The position numbers and the translations under genes were made by a program. A DNA stretch of 64,000 nt from Oscillospiraceae bacterium (GTDB lineage Bacteria; Bacillota; Clostridia; Oscillospirales; Oscillospiraceae): assembly GCA_015067435.1 (NCBI GenBank), contig SVMM01000002.1, positions 1-64,000 of the forward strand, read 5' to 3'. The notes beneath the pieces were generated by a model, which was not told where the DNA came from, did no database searches, and saw only the letters and a list, made by a program, of their open reading frames with translations. How positions within the stretch are numbered: position 1 is the first letter of the stretch; each line of letters opens with the position of its first letter. Shown here piece by piece: positions 24,261 through 30,719 of the stretch.

Positions 24261-24300
24261 AAACGCCCGTCTTGCTCTGAATGGAACAAGACAGGCGTTT
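24261..24300. terminator. Bidirectional terminator
   Basis: Stem 24261-24274 with 24287-24300 (14 positions, one mismatch), with T-rich ends on both strands. It serves the pseudo-AAA gene on the plus strand and the end of the T-box operon on the minus strand. Confidence 0.85.
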
Positions 24301-24343: not shown

Positions 24344-25414
24344 TCAGCATACCGGAACGATCCAGCCGTGCGGATCGGCGACACGGCCCCACTGGATGCC
24401 GGTCAACTCGTTGTAGAGCGCCTGCGTGAGCGGGCCGATGCTGCCGTCGCCGATCTGGTACTCCTTGCCCTGATAGATCAGCTTGCCGATGGGGGAGACG
24501 ACCGCGGCGGTGCCGCAGCCCCACGCCTCCTCAATGGCGCCGGCTTCGACCGCCTTGACAAACTCGTCGACGGAGAACAGGCGTTCGCTGACGCTCTGCC
24601 CCTTGTCGCGCAGCAGCTGGAGAATAGAGCGGCGCGTGACGCCCGGGAGCACCGTGCCGGTCTCCAGCGTGGGCGTGACGACCTCGCCGTTGATCTTGAA
24701 CATGACGTTCATGCTGCCGACTTCCTCGATATACTGCTTCGACGCGCCGTCCAGCCACAGCACCTGCGAGATGCCCTTCTCCTCGGCGCGCATTCCGGCG
24801 CGCTGCGCCGCGGCGTAGTTGCCGCCGCATTTTGCGAAGCCCGTGCCGCCGCGCACCGTGCGCGCGTCCTCGGTTTCGATGGCGATGCTCACCGGCTTGA
24901 GACCGGTTTTGTAGTAGCAGCCGACAGGGGAGAGGATCACGACGAACAGGCAGCGGTCGGTGCAGTGCAGCGAGACGTCAGGCTCCACAGACATGACGAT
25001 CGGGCGGATGTAAAGGGATTCTCCCTCACCGGACGGAACCCAGTCTTTGTCCAGCTCGACCAGCGTTTTGATCGCCTGCAGCGCGTCGTCGGGATCGAGA
25101 CGGGGCAGCGCCAGACGGTCGGCGGAGTTGTTGATGCGCTCGATGTTGCAGTCGGGACGGAACAGCTGGATATGCCCCTCCGCCGTGCGGTACGCCTTGA
25201 GCCCCTCAAACACGTCCATGGCGTAGTTGAGCACCGCGGCGCTCGGCTCGATGGGCAGCGGGCCGTAGGGGACGATGCGGGGATCGTGCCAGCCCTCGGC
25301 GGAGTTGAAATCCATGAGGAACATATGGTCGGTAAACGTGGTGCCAAAGGATACCTTCGACATATCGGGCTTCGCCTTGGGCGCGGTCGTCTTTTCGATG
25401 CGAATGTTCAGCAT
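24344..25414 (-). CDS. ilvE: Branched-chain amino acid aminotransferase
   Basis: PLP enzyme interconverting Ile, Leu or Val with their 2-oxoacids, with glutamate as amino donor. 356 residues, the type II BCAT length. Fold class IV features: DVFEGLKAYRT near residue 69, the PLP lysine in FAKCGGNYAAAQ near 193-204, EVGSMNVMF near 230, and the GTGTAAVVSPIG-like CGTAAVVSPIG near 315. Start ATG has AGGAGG six bases upstream. It is the last gene of the T-box operon, ten bases after the oxidoreductase gamma subunit. In this setting it should run from 2-oxoacid to amino acid. Confidence 0.94.
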   Translation of the reverse strand: MLNIRIEKTTAPKAKPDMSKVSFGTTFTDHMFLMDFNSAEGWHDPRIVPYGPLPIEPSAAVLNYAMDVFEGLKAYRTAEGHIQLFRPDCNIERINNSADRLALPRLDPDDALQAIKTLVELDKDWVPSGEGESLYIRPIVMSVEPDVSLHCTDRCLFVVILSPVGCYYKTGLKPVSIAIETEDARTVRGGTGFAKCGGNYAAAQRAGMRAEEKGISQVLWLDGASKQYIEEVGSMNVMFKINGEVVTPTLETGTVLPGVTRRSILQLLRDKGQSVSERLFSVDEFVKAVEAGAIEEAWGCGTAAVVSPIGKLIYQGKEYQIGDGSIGPLTQALYNELTGIQWGRVADPHGWIVPVC

Positions 25415-25424
25415 GATATCCTCC

Positions 25425-25955
25425 TTATTTACTCAAATACAAATCAACAGCCTTGCGGTTCGGTGCGAGGAACTTTTCCTTGCGGCCGGAGAACATGTGC
25501 TCCAGCTCCGCGTAGACCGTCTCGTACTTCACGACGCCGGTCTCCTTGAGGATCGCGCCGAGCATGACCATGTTGGCGGCGCGGTCGACGCCGAGCTTCT
25601 GTGCCTCCTCGTTCGCCGGGACCTCGATGACGCGGATGTCGCTCCGCTTCGCCTTTTCAGGGATCAGCGAGCTGTTCATGAACAGCAGCCCGCTGGGCTT
25701 GACCATCGGCTCAAAGCGCGTGAGGCTGGGGAGGTTCATCACCACCAGCACGTCGCACTCGTTGATGAGCGGGCAGCTGATGGGCTTGTCGGAGATCACG
25801 ACCGTGGCGTTGGCGGTGCCGCCGCGCATTTCGGGGCCGTAGGAGGGAAGAAACGTGACCTCGTTGCCCTCCTCCATGGAGGCCTTGGCGATGAGCTGGC
25901 CGATGGCGAGGGCGCCCTGGCCGCCGCTGCCGGCAAAAAACATCTTTTTCAGCAT
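25425..25955 (-). CDS. 2-oxoacid:ferredoxin oxidoreductase gamma subunit (VorC/KorC type)
   Basis: 176-residue pyruvate-ferredoxin oxidoreductase gamma domain: FAGSGGQGALAIGQLIAKA near 7-25 and SYGPEMRGGTANATVVIS near 39-56. The family binds CoA and helps join subunits. Start ATG follows GAGGTGA. It lies 15 bases after the beta gene and ten before ilvE. Confidence 0.92.
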   Translation of the reverse strand: MLKKMFFAGSGGQGALAIGQLIAKASMEEGNEVTFLPSYGPEMRGGTANATVVISDKPISCPLINECDVLVVMNLPSLTRFEPMVKPSGLLFMNSSLIPEKAKRSDIRVIEVPANEEAQKLGVDRAANMVMLGAILKETGVVKYETVYAELEHMFSGRKEKFLAPNRKAVDLYLSK

Positions 25956-25970
25956 TTCACGTCACCTCGC

Positions 25971-26714
25971 TCAATAGCCTTCCGGGCGCTTGAAGTTCTT
26001 CACGGGATAGTACGCCGCCATCTCCGTCTCGACCCACTTGAGCGCGTCCGCCGGTGCAAGCCCCCAGTTGGTGGGGCAGGCGGAGAGGAATTCGACAAAG
26101 GTGAAGCCGAGGCCCGCCGCCTGAATGTCGAGCGCGGTCTGGATCGCCTTCTTTGCCTTGCGGACGTTCGCGGGGTTGTTGAGCATGACGCGCTCGACAA
26201 ACACGGCGCAGTCGATGGTGGCGAGCATCTCGCACACGCGCAGCGGCATACCTGCCTGCTCGACGGTGCGTCCGTTCACGGCGGTGGTCGCCTTCTGGCC
26301 GATCAGCGTGGTGGGTGCCATCTGTCCGCCGGTCATGCCGTAGATGGCGTTGTTGATGAAAAACGTCGTGAACTTCTCACCGCGGTGCGCCGCGTGGACG
26401 ATCTCGCCCGCGCCGATGGAGGCGAGGTCGCCGTCGCCCTGATAGGTAAACACGACCTTGTCCGGATGGACGCGGCGGATGCCCGAAGCGATGGCGGGCG
26501 CGCGTCCGTGTGTGGATTCGCACATGTCGACGTTCATGAAGTGATGGGCGTTGATGGCGCAGCCGATGGGCACGACGCCGATGGCGCGGCCCAGATCGCC
26601 GCGCTCCTCCAGACACTCCATGATAAGCCGGTGCGCGATGCCGTGGGAGCAGCCGGGGCAGTAGCTGGTGTCGATGGGCACCATGCCCGCGGTGGGCTTG
26701 AATACGGTTTTCAC
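25971..26714 (-). CDS. 2-oxoacid:ferredoxin oxidoreductase beta subunit (TPP-binding)
   Basis: Thiamine diphosphate subunit of the four-part oxidoreductase. The start is GTG at 26714, overlapping the alpha stop (GTGA) and preceded by a perfect AGGAGGTGA; the frame open further upstream belongs to antisense noise. 247 residues. YCPGCSHGIAHRL near 18-30 carries a cluster-type CxxC, and the TPP/Mg motif is GDGDLASIGAGE ... NNAIYGMTGGQMAPT near 93-132. Confidence 0.93.
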   Translation of the reverse strand: MKTVFKPTAGMVPIDTSYCPGCSHGIAHRLIMECLEERGDLGRAIGVVPIGCAINAHHFMNVDMCESTHGRAPAIASGIRRVHPDKVVFTYQGDGDLASIGAGEIVHAAHRGEKFTTFFINNAIYGMTGGQMAPTTLIGQKATTAVNGRTVEQAGMPLRVCEMLATIDCAVFVERVMLNNPANVRKAKKAIQTALDIQAAGLGFTFVEFLSACPTNWGLAPADALKWVETEMAAYYPVKNFKRPEGY

Positions 26715-27793
26715 TGCGCCTTCACCTCCTCCAGAAGCTTCATCGCCCGGTCGGCGATCTCGATGGACGACGGCACGATGCCGCCGGTGCGGTGGATCAG
26801 CTTGACAGGCCAGCGGTTTTTCGCCGCGACCTTGACGTCGTAGATCATCTGGCCCATGGAAAGCTCGGTGGAGATCACGAGCTTCGTCTTCGGACCGATC
26901 TCGTCGAACGCCTTGTCGGGGAAGGGCCACAGGCTGATGGGCCGGATCAGGCCGGCCTTGACGCCGCGCTCGGCAAGCAGATCCATCGTCTCGACGCACA
27001 GGCGGGACATGGTGCCAAAGGCGACGAACACGACCTCTGCGTCCTCCAGACCGATCGACTTGTAGCGCACCAACTCTTTCTCCGCCTCGGCGTACTTTTC
27101 AAACATTTTCTCGACGTGCGCTTCCAGCACGTCCGGCTGCATCCGCAGCGAGTAGATCACGTTGCGGCCCTCGTGCTGGCCGGTGCCGGTGATTGCCCAC
27201 GGCTTGATCTTCGGAATGTCCGCAACGGGCGTGATCTCCTTTTTCGGGGGCAGCTCGACGGGCTCCATCATCTGGCCCATCATGGCATCCGCAAGGATCA
27301 GGACGGGGTTGCGGTACTTTTCCGCGATGTCGAAGCACTCGTAGATCAGGTCGACGCACTCCTGAATGCCCGCGGGGGCAAAGACGGGGATCTTTGCGTC
27401 GCCGTTGTAGCCGCCGCGCGTGACCTGTAAATAGTCCGCCTGTCCGGGCTGGATGCCGCCGACGCCGGGACCGCCGCGGGACACGTTCATCGCGACGAGC
27501 GGCACCTCGGTCGAGCAGATAAAGCCGAGGCCCTCCTGCATCAGCGCGAGACCGGGGGAGCTGGTGGAGATGAACACGCGCCCGCCCGCCGCCGCAGCGC
27601 CGAACGCCATATTGACCGCTGCGAGCTCGCTCTCCGCCTGCAAAAACGCGCCGCCTGCCTTCGGCAGCTCATGGCTCATGTACTCGGGAATCTCGTTCTG
27701 CGGAGTGATTGGGTAGCCGAAGTAGCACTTGACGCCCGCGCGGATGGCGGCCTCGCCGAACGCCTCGTTGCCTTTCATCAAAATCCTGCTCAT
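26711..27793 (-). CDS. vorB: 2-oxoacid:ferredoxin oxidoreductase alpha subunit, VorB type
   Basis: 360-residue alpha subunit. The N-terminus ILMKGNEAFGEAAIRAGVKCYFGYPITPQNEIPEY is split across residues 4-38 and matches the 3-methyl-2-oxobutanoate (2-oxoisovalerate) ferredoxin oxidoreductase VorB as I remember it, rather than KorA or PorA. With beta, gamma and the ferredoxin-like subunit it would interconvert a branched 2-oxoacid and acyl-CoA plus CO2 with ferredoxin. The reaction is reversible; the T-box in front of the operon argues for reductive carboxylation. It overlaps the ferredoxin subunit by four bases. Confidence 0.9.
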   Translation of the reverse strand: MSRILMKGNEAFGEAAIRAGVKCYFGYPITPQNEIPEYMSHELPKAGGAFLQAESELAAVNMAFGAAAAGGRVFISTSSPGLALMQEGLGFICSTEVPLVAMNVSRGGPGVGGIQPGQADYLQVTRGGYNGDAKIPVFAPAGIQECVDLIYECFDIAEKYRNPVLILADAMMGQMMEPVELPPKKEITPVADIPKIKPWAITGTGQHEGRNVIYSLRMQPDVLEAHVEKMFEKYAEAEKELVRYKSIGLEDAEVVFVAFGTMSRLCVETMDLLAERGVKAGLIRPISLWPFPDKAFDEIGPKTKLVISTELSMGQMIYDVKVAAKNRWPVKLIHRTGGIVPSSIEIADRAMKLLEEVKAQ

Positions 27794-28020
27794 GTTTCGC
27801 CCTCCTCCAGTTCATAGATCGTGATGCAGCAGTCGGGGCACATCAGCGCGCAGCTTGTGCAGCCGATGCACTGCGTCTCGTCCGTGCAGCAGGCGGGGTG
27901 ATAGCCCTTGGCGTTCACTGATGCGTCCATGGCGAGGATGTGCTTCGGACACACGCTGACGCAGAGCTCACAGCCCTTGCATTTGTCGGCGTTGAAGGAA
28001 AGCCGGAATCGTCTGTTCAT
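27790..28020 (-). CDS. 4Fe-4S ferredoxin-like subunit of the oxidoreductase (VorD/KorD type)
   Basis: Small protein with two 4Fe-4S motifs: CKGCELCVSVCP and CIGCTSCALMCP. It passes electrons between ferredoxin and the TPP subunit. ATG at 28020 gives 76 residues and sits eight bases from GGAG; an ATG six bases earlier (28026) is only three bases from it. It overlaps the alpha gene by four bases and follows the acyl-CoA synthetase fusion by 15 bases. Confidence 0.92.
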   Translation of the reverse strand: MNRRFRLSFNADKCKGCELCVSVCPKHILAMDASVNAKGYHPACCTDETQCIGCTSCALMCPDCCITIYELEEGET

Positions 28021-28035
28021 GGTCATATCTCCTAT

Positions 28036-30327
28036 TTATAATTTGTTCCTGATGATCTTGCCGGAGATCGTCTTGGGCAGCTCGTCGCGGAATTCGACGA
28101 TGCGCGGGTACTTGTACGGCGCGGTGCGCTTCTTGACGTAGTCCTGAATCTCCTTCTTGAGCTCGTCCGTGCCCTCGGTGCCCTTCGTCAGCGTGATGCA
28201 CGCCTTGACCACCTGACCGCGGATCTCGTCCGGCGCGGCGCAGACGCCGCACTCCAGCACGTAGGGAAGCTCCATGATGACGCTCTCGATCTCGAACGGC
28301 CCGATGCGGTAGCCGGAGGACTTGATGACGTCGTCCGCGCGGCCGACGTACCAGAAGTAGCCGTCCTCGTCCTGCCAAGCGAGGTCGCCGGTGTGGTAGT
28401 ATTCGTCGTGCCAGCTCGCGGCGGTCGCCTCCGGCGCCTCATAATAGCCCTTGAACAGGCCGCAGGGGTCGCCCGCGCCGGTGTAGATGACGATCTCGCC
28501 GGTGTCGCCGGTGTTCACGGGCTTGCCGTCCGCGTCCATCAGCTCCACGGAGTACATGGGGTTCGGCTTGCCCATGGAGCCGGGCTTCGGCGTGGTGCCG
28601 ACAAAGTTGCCAATGACCAGCGTGGTTTCGGTCTGGCCGAAACCCTCCATGATGGAAAGACCCGTGATCTTCTTGAACTGCTCGTAGACCTCCGGGTTCA
28701 TCGCCTCACCCGCGATGCTCGCGTGGCGGATGGAGGTGAGATCGTACTTTGAGAGATCTTCCTTAATGAAAAAGCGGTACATCGTCGGCGGCGCGCAGAA
28801 GGTCGTGATCTGGTACTTCGCGAACAGCGGCAGGATGTCGTCGGCGGCGAAGCGGTCGAAGTCATAGACGAAGGTCGCCGCGCCGTTCATCCACTGGCCG
28901 TAGAGCTTGCCCCACAGCGCCTTCCCCCATCCGGTGTCGGAGATCGTGAGATGGATGCCGTCGGGATCGACGCAGTGCCAGTAGCGCGCCGTAACGTAGT
29001 GCCCGAGCGGATACTTGCAGCTGTGCTCCACCGCCTTGGGGTAGCCGGACGTGCCGGAGGAGAAGAGCATGAGCATCGTGTCGCTGCCCTGAATGCTGTC
29101 CTCCGTGCGGTGGAAGCGGCTGGAATACATCTCATACTCGTCGTCGAAGCTGTGCCAGCCCTCGCGCCGGCCGCCGCTGATGACACGCAGACGTACGGTG
29201 GGGCAGCGCTGCATCGCCTTTTCCGCCTCCGCCGCGCAGCCGCCGTGGGCGGAGCAGACGATGGCGGAGACGCCGGCAGTCTGGAAGCGGTACTCGAAGT
29301 CCTTCTCCACCAGCTGGTCGGTGGCGGGGATAGCGACGGCGCCCAGCTTGTGCAGACCCACGATCACCGGCCAGAACTCCCAGTTGCGCCGCATGACCAG
29401 CATCACACGGTCGCCGCGGTTGATGCCGAGCGCGCGGAAGTAGTTCGCCGCGCGGGCGCTCATCTTCTTCATCTGCTCGAAGGTGAAGCGGCGCTCGTTC
29501 TTCTCGCGGTCGAGGTGCACCATGGCGAGGCGGTTCGGCTCTTTCTCCGCAATGGCGTCGACCACGTCGAAGGCGAAGTTGAAGCGTTCGGTGTTGTGGA
29601 ACTCGACGGAGAGGGGATAGCCGGTCGCATCCTCGACGGTGCTGACGAACTCGGACATGAAGGCGGGGGCGGGCTTGAGCGGGGAGGAGAGCAGCTTTGC
29701 AGCCTCCTCGCCGGGCTGGACAATGTGTCCGTGCTCCCACTGCACCTCCTCCTCGGCGAGAATGACCGCGAGGAATACGCAGTCCTCGCCGTCAACGGCG
29801 ATGATGCCGTGGGGCTTGGAAGAGTCGTAGTAGATGCAGTCGCCGGGGCCGAGGGTTTCGGTGTGCTCCCCGATCTTGATCTTCATGCGCCCCTCGATGA
29901 CGAGGTCGAACTCCTGTCCCTTGTGCGAGACCTGATGGATGGGCTTATGCTGCTCCTCCTCGGAGTACTCGTAGCGCACCCAGTAGGGGTCCGCCTTGCG
30001 GTTCTTGAACAGCGGCGCGATGCTGCTGATCTCGATACCCGGCTCCTTGGCGGTGAGCTGGCCCTTGCCGCGGCGCGTGACCGAATAACCGGTCAGGCGC
30101 GGCGTGCTGCCCTCCATCAGCTCCATGATCTCAACGCCGAAGGTCAGCGCGCACTTATGAATAAAGGTGAAAGGCAGATCGGCCTCGCCGGCCTCATAGA
30201 TGCGGTAGTCCTCCGGTTCCACGCCCGTGAACCGTGCCATTTCCTGTTCGGTGTAACCGCTGAGGATGCGCAGCTCGCGGATGCGCTCCGCGACCTCCAG
30301 CAGCGCGCCGGTCGTCGTGTTTACCAT
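28036..30327 (-). CDS. XRE-cupin-acyl-CoA synthetase fusion protein
   Basis: 763 residues in three parts. Residues about 8-75 are an XRE helix-turn-helix (VAERIRELRILSGYTEQEMARFTGV). Residues about 110-185 are a cupin (HKGQEFDLVIEGRMKIKIG, GDCIYYDSSKPHGI). Residues about 235-763 are an AMP-forming acyl-CoA synthetase: FSSGTSGYPKAVEH, the YHTGDLAWQDEDGYFWYVGR hinge region, RADDVIKSSGYRIGPFEIE and the C-terminal acylating lysine in PKTISGKIIRNK. XRE-cupin proteins (PuuR-like) are one-component regulators; here one is joined to an enzyme, with no stop or frameshift between. It is the first gene after the T-box leader and would activate a branched acid to acyl-CoA for the VOR enzyme. Substrate is inferred. 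Confidence 0.88.
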   Translation of the reverse strand: MVNTTTGALLEVAERIRELRILSGYTEQEMARFTGVEPEDYRIYEAGEADLPFTFIHKCALTFGVEIMELMEGSTPRLTGYSVTRRGKGQLTAKEPGIEISSIAPLFKNRKADPYWVRYEYSEEEQHKPIHQVSHKGQEFDLVIEGRMKIKIGEHTETLGPGDCIYYDSSKPHGIIAVDGEDCVFLAVILAEEEVQWEHGHIVQPGEEAAKLLSSPLKPAPAFMSEFVSTVEDATGYPLSVEFHNTERFNFAFDVVDAIAEKEPNRLAMVHLDREKNERRFTFEQMKKMSARAANYFRALGINRGDRVMLVMRRNWEFWPVIVGLHKLGAVAIPATDQLVEKDFEYRFQTAGVSAIVCSAHGGCAAEAEKAMQRCPTVRLRVISGGRREGWHSFDDEYEMYSSRFHRTEDSIQGSDTMLMLFSSGTSGYPKAVEHSCKYPLGHYVTARYWHCVDPDGIHLTISDTGWGKALWGKLYGQWMNGAATFVYDFDRFAADDILPLFAKYQITTFCAPPTMYRFFIKEDLSKYDLTSIRHASIAGEAMNPEVYEQFKKITGLSIMEGFGQTETTLVIGNFVGTTPKPGSMGKPNPMYSVELMDADGKPVNTGDTGEIVIYTGAGDPCGLFKGYYEAPEATAASWHDEYYHTGDLAWQDEDGYFWYVGRADDVIKSSGYRIGPFEIESVIMELPYVLECGVCAAPDEIRGQVVKACITLTKGTEGTDELKKEIQDYVKKRTAPYKYPRIVEFRDELPKTISGKIIRNKL

Positions 30328-30381
30328 GGTCGTTTTCCTCCTGTTTCAGCTTTACCATAGGCGAGACGTGGTGGAAAAAAG

Positions 30382-30683
30382 AAAAACACCCGTCTCAAAT
30401 CTTCCTTTGAGACGAGTGCTGATGCACACCCGCGGTACCACTCAAATTGCGCTTTCGCGCCGCTCTGCGGGCTCTAACAAGCCCTTGGCCTTCACGCAGC
30501 CTTCACGTGGAGCCTTACCCGACCGTCGCCCCGTATACGTGGCTCCGTTCGCTCGGACTCCCGACTCGGAAGTGATGGGTCATAAGGGAAGCGCTTTGCT
30601 CCGGCTCTCAGCAGCCGCCGGCTCTCTGTCGTCAAAAGCGATCCCGACCGTCTTCGTCACAGTCTTTTTTGCTTTTCGATTGT
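30382..30683 (-). promoter_or_regulatory. T-box leader, isoleucine specifier likely
   Basis: Minus-strand leader RNA of the six-gene operon. The T-box sequence AGTGGTACCGCGGGTG lies at 30442 to 30427. It is followed by a terminator with a 13-base-pair stem (30418-30406 with 30399-30387) and a T-run. Stem I shows the AGAGAGCCGG...GAGAGCCGG distal part and a GA-rich k-turn. Counting up from the k-turn (CCGAGTC), the helix CTTC/GAAG and the usual A, the specifier is AUC at 30576-30574 (Ile). Uncharged tRNA-Ile would then allow read-through. A CUU (Leu) reading nearby fits less well. T-box identity is strong; the codon is moderate. Confidence 0.88.
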
Positions 30684-30689
30684 ACTGTA

Positions 30690-30719
30690 ATTTTACGCGT
30701 TAAAGCGTGTATTCGTCAA
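30690..30719 (-). promoter_or_regulatory. Promoter of the T-box operon
   Basis: Minus strand -35 TTGACG (30719 to 30714), 18-base spacer, -10 TAAAAT (30695 to 30690), a few bases before the leader. Confidence 0.6.

Follow-up and report, generated by a model that had tools for sequence, protein, structure and literature searches.

A T-box operon predicted to make isoleucine from 2-methylbutyrate in an Oscillospiraceae bacterium, with apparent joint switching of codon and enzyme residue in its relatives

Introduction

A T-box switches its genes on when its amino acid becomes scarce. The T-box amino-acid operons that have been surveyed share with the locus described here a tRNA-sensing leader and its codon logic (PMC2494555), but the present T-box controls genes for scavenging and carboxylation, unlike those operons as the survey describes them, and its main text contains no occurrence of acyl-CoA, ferredoxin or ilvE. 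The chemistry that we propose is itself already known in rumen bacteria, where Allison and co-workers (1966-1971, as cited in PMC7356843) found branched-chain amino acids to be made from isovalerate, isobutyrate and 2-methylbutyrate. In rumen fermentation, Ile derives from 2-methylbutyrate, Val from isobutyrate and Leu from isovalerate (PMC7356843). Precursors, products and niche agree with those of the proposed operon. That route differs in being known from tracer biochemistry, with no genes named and no T-box control in the available text of the same source. Methanogens, which are archaea, likewise use 2-methylbutyrate and isovalerate for isoleucine and leucine, so that precursor use again matches, with no T-box mentioned in the accessible part of that report (PMC10658910).

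Two acyl-CoA synthetases offer the closest comparisons at the enzyme level. MacsMa from Methanosarcina acetivorans (PDB 3ETC) prefers 2-methylbutyrate and has Trp259 in its acyl pocket (PMC10455477), while MbcS from Staphylococcus aureus channels 2-methylbutyrate and isobutyrate into fatty acids and handles isovalerate poorly (PMC10026030). A third comparison is 2-oxoisovalerate:ferredoxin oxidoreductase (VOR), and some VOR-like enzymes favour aromatic 2-oxoacids (PMC13290082). Among the open-licence papers listed, none dealt with the present operon, with control of it by a T-box, or with the joint switch of codon and residue described below.

Results

Layout of the operon

The window, the whole stretch of 64,000 nucleotides that was analysed, holds one unit at 30719-24261(-), in which six closely spaced genes follow a promoter-like site and a T-box leader and are closed by a terminator. 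The features, in order of transcription, are as follows.

30690..30719 (-): sigma-70-type promoter-like site, TTGACG - 18 nt - TAAAAT (consensus scan, 10/12 matches)
30405..30669 (-): T-box leader (relaxed RF00230 match, Stem I covariation, folding)
30385..30420 (-): intrinsic terminator competing with the antiterminator (folding)
28036..30327 (-): fusion of an HTH-cupin part (about residues 1-225) and an AMP-forming acyl-CoA synthetase (about residues 241-763) (domain matches)
27790..28026 (-): ferredoxin-type delta subunit with two 4Fe-4S motifs (domain search); gap of 9 to the fusion gene
26711..27793 (-): VorB-type 2-oxoacid:ferredoxin oxidoreductase alpha subunit (NF005507); overlap of 4 with the ferredoxin gene
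25971..26714 (-): beta subunit, TPP-binding (TPP_enzyme_C), GTG start at 26714; overlap of 4 with the alpha gene
25425..25955 (-): gamma subunit (PF01558 and TIGR02175, both over cut-off); gap of 15 to the beta gene
24344..25414 (-): branched-chain aminotransferase, IlvE type II (TIGR01123); gap of 10 to the gamma gene
24261..24300 (-): intrinsic terminator 3' of ilvE (fold -33.3 kcal/mol, z -7.5)

The promoter-like site is weak when taken alone, as the scan gave 2 sites against 1.3 expected. The first-pass annotation had described six minus-strand genes separated by no more than 15 bases or overlapping, with a terminator at the end, and the ORF coordinates (24344-30327(-); gaps up to 15 bases, overlaps of 4 bases), domains and folds all agree with it.

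In the fusion protein, AMP-binding, AMP-binding_C and Cupin_2 all score over their cut-offs, and HTH_19 falls under its own (20.1 vs 30.2). Curated cut-offs are exceeded by the alpha subunit with the VorB model NF005507 (459.6 bits vs 399) and by IlvE with TIGR01123 (369 vs 250), and the gamma subunit passes TIGR02175 (86.3 vs 81.1). The beta subunit reaches no NCBIfam cut-off, its best model being TIGR02177 (107.4 vs 261.9). This set of alpha, beta, gamma and ferredoxin-type genes is like that of VOR; the difference is that carboxylation is the predicted direction of the present enzyme.

The nearest NCBIfam model to the fusion is the MbcS equivalog NF047394, against which it scores 444.1, below the curated cut-off of 850, and we therefore describe the synthetase as related to MbcS rather than as a member. 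The two are alike in that MbcS accepts 2-methylbutyrate and isobutyrate, and differ in that MbcS feeds fatty acids. The nearest PDB chain is 3etc (643.5 bits, 53.7% identity over 514 residues), the archaeal MacsMa, whose matched chain region lacks an HTH-cupin domain. The acyl-pocket Trp is common to MacsMa and the fusion synthetase, and in relatives it is kept in 69/69 copies of the Ile class and 21/21 of the Val class, as defined by codon below.

A T-box leader with an isoleucine specifier

At the gathering threshold, Rfam gave no match in the window except a tRNA. At a relaxed threshold, RF00230 matched 30669-30405(-) over the full length of the model, with 58.4 bits against a gathering score of 93 (E 3.5e-12). 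Of seven T-boxes found in the source genome, five fall short of that gathering score, including those upstream of tyrS and of a TrpX-like gene. The T-box core UGGUACCGCG lies at 30440-30431(-). The competing terminator folds at -21.8 kcal/mol (z -5.5 vs shuffles). The predicted fold of the antiterminator stretch shows the 7-nt UGGUACC bulge expected of a T-box, but, folded by themselves, neither this stretch (z -1.5) nor Stem I (z -0.7) goes beyond shuffles. The case for a T-box rests on covariation. Across 40 relatives, pairing is intact in 94.1% of Stem I cells and falls to 25-46% once the partners are slid; double changes number 105, where shuffles give 26.4.

Our own Stem I covariance model was built from these 40 sequences, chosen among 66 that a regex readout had already assigned an Ile, Val or Leu codon. 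Other codons could stay hidden because of this preselection, but the model still recovers the glyS and valS T-boxes (GGC and GUC). The T-box of the first-pass annotation is thus found by covariance-model search, using the relaxed threshold and our own model, and missed at the strict Rfam threshold. On these comparative grounds we consider it confirmed that the predicted tRNA-sensing leader upstream of the operon is a T-box.

A regex readout of the specifier picked false matches, and the covariance-model alignment was used instead. This gives AUC (Ile) at 30576-30574(-), the amino acid that had been proposed for this leader. The same method yields the right codons elsewhere in the source genome: GGC at glyS, GUC at valS, UAC at tyrS and UGG at the TrpX-like gene, where the TrpX match is itself below cut-off. 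The source genome has two UGG (Trp) T-boxes, at L093:2325(+) and L094:3264-3551(+), one of them upstream of this TrpX-like ABC transporter gene.

Occurrence of the operon and of the usual ilv genes

The first-pass annotation had raised the possible absence of ilv and leu genes. Searches of the source genome (96% complete) found no ilvC, no ilvD and no member of the aconitase family, with 14/14 controls found in each search, and so no leuC; no ilvA scored over a cut-off that only 5/14 controls pass. By the ilvC, ilvD and aconitase-family searches, the usual ilv route is not available in this genome. A second genome with the operon, rated 100% complete (G004), also gave no ilvC, ilvD or aconitases. 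Both ilvC and ilvD are present in G007 and G010, which belong to the same genus as the source.

We surveyed 393 class-level genomes, scoring the best two candidates per genome with matches listed down to about 664 bits, so that weak fusions may be missed. A full-length fusion is present in at least 68 of the 393; the lists of fusion genomes, ilvC and VorB were compiled manually from tables. Among the matches listed, and with kinship ignored, ilvC occurs in 19/68 fusion genomes against 205/325 others (p 1.6e-7), and VorB in 65/68 against 173/325 (p 8e-13). By genus, with the same limits, ilvC in any genome gives 10/34 with fusion against 123/186 (p 9e-5), and scoring ilvC in fusion-bearing genomes only gives 8/34 (p 2.5e-6). 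The 60 nearest genomes show a weak trend, with ilvC in 6/26 against 15/34 (p 0.11) if G019 is counted as a fusion, or 5/25 against 16/35 (p 0.06) if it is reclassed as a two-gene form.

Specifier codons in relatives

Searching 111 sources with the Stem I model gave 113 matches, of which 93 (92 different sequences) lie 164-402 nt upstream of a fusion gene. All 93 have branched-chain codons: 70 Ile (AUC 70), 22 Val (GUA 21, GUC 1) and 1 Leu (CUC 1), many of them from close kin. Among the 67 genomes with a read fusion codon, 11 have ilvC and 21 have two read copies. Two different codons are carried by 20 of these 21, comprising 18 Ile+Val(GUA), 1 Ile+Val(GUC) and 1 Ile+Leu, with the remaining genome Ile+Ile; for one of the 21, G381, the second copy is broken and its codon was entered manually. 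Many relatives have the synthetase apart from VOR, and lone synthetase copies occur.

Fusions without a Stem I match were seen at L174, L193, L195 and L196 (G192, G383, G227 and G278). As three of these four genomes possess ilvC (all except G383), control or role may differ there.

Of the 17 loci with record titles, ruminant gut is named for 6 and a RUG number is given for 5, which we take to denote rumen; the kin are largely ruminant-gut MAGs.

Codon and synthetase residue switch together

In a tree built from 110 synthetase domains, 19 of which have no read codon, the codon class needs five changes, against a shuffled mean of 20. A careful tree of 92 rows, with candidate columns left out, again needs five; here, four Val changes are forced by supported branches, and four are found in bootstraps too. 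The change count gives no direction, but the Ile state looks to be the older because it is found on most branches.

Only 2 of 522 alignment columns have no residue common to the Ile rows and the Val/Leu rows, and these correspond to positions 278 and 281 of the 3etc chain. Position 278 is Gly in 69/69 Ile copies and Ala in 22/22 Val/Leu copies, while position 281 is Leu (67) or Val (2) in Ile copies vs Met (18), Ala (3) or Ser (1) in Val/Leu copies. In the fusion protein of the window these are G468 and L471, both of the Ile type. Residue 278 likewise needs five changes, matching the codon switch each time. All five independent pairs agree at this residue, giving a sign-test p of 0.0625, the lowest that five pairs allow, and in random draws of five like-sized clades, 0/1000 yield even one such separating column. 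These data suggest that codon and enzyme residue switch together in relatives, apparently to serve valine instead of isoleucine.

MacsMa has the Ile-type Gly at 278, which, together with its preference for 2-methylbutyrate, agrees with the Ile label. Residue 278 would line the acyl pocket, and the changes from Gly to Ala and from Leu/Val to Met/Ala/Ser probably re-tune the Val/Leu copies from 2-methylbutyrate to another acid, for example isobutyrate. As codon and residue switch together, the T-box codon is expected to predict the substrate of the synthetase. This would be a case of the codon of a product-sensing RNA and a residue of the producing enzyme switching jointly, in five places on a tree. 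An AlphaFold model of the fusion (pLDDT 53, pTM 0.37) was too poor to place the switching residue and was set aside.

Proposed pathway and alternatives

We think it likely, judging from sequence, that the operon makes isoleucine by scavenging at times of isoleucine shortage. Uncharged tRNA-Ile would pair both with the AUC specifier and with the bulge of the T-box, allowing the antiterminator to form and the operon to be transcribed. The synthetase would then convert 2-methylbutyrate, ATP and CoA to 2-methylbutyryl-CoA; AMP-forming synthetases work in the direction of the CoA ester. The VorB-type enzyme, driven by reduced ferredoxin, would add CO2 to give 3-methyl-2-oxopentanoate, from which IlvE would form isoleucine by transamination. 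A second switch may be provided by the HTH-cupin part, as a sensor of the acid or its CoA ester. The first-pass annotation had proposed that one operon turns branched acids into all three branched-chain amino acids; for this operon the evidence favours the route from 2-methylbutyrate to isoleucine over the extension to all three, and valine and leucine appear to have their own codon-matched genes in relatives.

The same genes could in principle run the other way, as VOR does in Clostridium sporogenes and gut acetogens, with IlvE and VOR oxidising branched-chain amino acids, acyl-CoA and reduced ferredoxin as the products, and the synthetase recapturing acids. The VOR reaction is reversible, and other gut Clostridia use the enzyme in catabolism of branched-chain amino acids, which induce expression of one VOR operon (PMC13290082). 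A catabolic role is nevertheless improbable here, as a T-box activates genes at amino-acid scarcity, its codon tracks a synthetase residue, and ilvC and ilvD were not found in the source genome. An annotation as 'VOR' need not mean catabolic.

Membrane lipids are another possible destination: the synthetase might mainly make branched acyl-CoA primers for fatty acids, with the T-box as a proxy for precursor shortage. MbcS, the nearest NCBIfam model (444 vs a cut-off of 850), does turn 2-methylbutyrate and isobutyrate to fatty-acid use (PMC10026030), and lone synthetase copies with no adjacent VOR exist in relatives. We give this little credence as the main function, given that VOR and IlvE lie on the same predicted transcript here and that VorB is present in 65/68 fusion genomes among the matches listed, but supply of lipid precursors may be a side role of the synthetase.

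Carboxylation of propionyl-CoA to 2-oxobutyrate is known in anaerobes. A start from propionate by this reaction, followed by the usual ilv steps to isoleucine, would fit an Ile T-box too, but is hardly credible when neither ilvC nor ilvD was found in the source genome or in G004 (rated 100% complete) and the nearest characterised enzyme, MacsMa, prefers 2-methylbutyrate (PMC10455477).

Isoleucine synthesis from scavenged 2-methylbutyrate would supply genes for a biochemistry that tracer studies established in the rumen, and suggests how bacteria that lack ilvC and ilvD can live on branched volatile acids.

A possible leucine arm

In the source genome, L092:10365-6005(-) (G000:C27) has a CUG T-box followed by a LeuA-like gene and then a fusion of a TIM-barrel domain (AP_endonuc_2) with an AMP-ligase. 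The same order is seen behind CUC or CUG T-boxes, on the same stretch as Ile or Val fusion copies, at L038, L096, L097, L150 and L190. At L049, where the stretch ends, the LeuA-like gene is found alone, alongside Ile or Val copies. The loci assigned to this arm are listed here.

L038:10162-
L096:2738-
L097:3239-
L150:10723-
L190:5446-
L175:3725- (codon incomplete)

It would be reasonable for leucine to have a ligase of its own, since MbcS handles isovalerate poorly (PMC10026030). We tentatively put forward, while leaning slightly against it, a three-arm, tRNA-decoded system in anaerobic Clostridia. Its Ile and Val arms would have arisen by repeated duplication of the HTH-cupin-synthetase gene, the T-box codon and a substrate-setting residue changing jointly as a code that relates codon to acid, and its Leu arm would work without LeuCD, as CUC/CUG T-boxes drive the LeuA-like enzyme, the TIM-barrel domain and the different AMP-ligase towards leucine.

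Tandem fusion pairs, with no T-box detected, were also observed at L106:8254- and L107:9001-, in Lachnospiraceae MAGs from horse feces. In these pairs the first copy has Gly and the second Ala at the switch position, which is what one Ile and one Val copy would be predicted to carry, and LeuA-like, TIM-barrel and ligase genes lie nearby. At G000:C14:107166-109581, an AMP-binding protein with 27% identity to the synthetase adjoins an opposite-strand frame of 595 residues with POR_N, possibly an aromatic counterpart.
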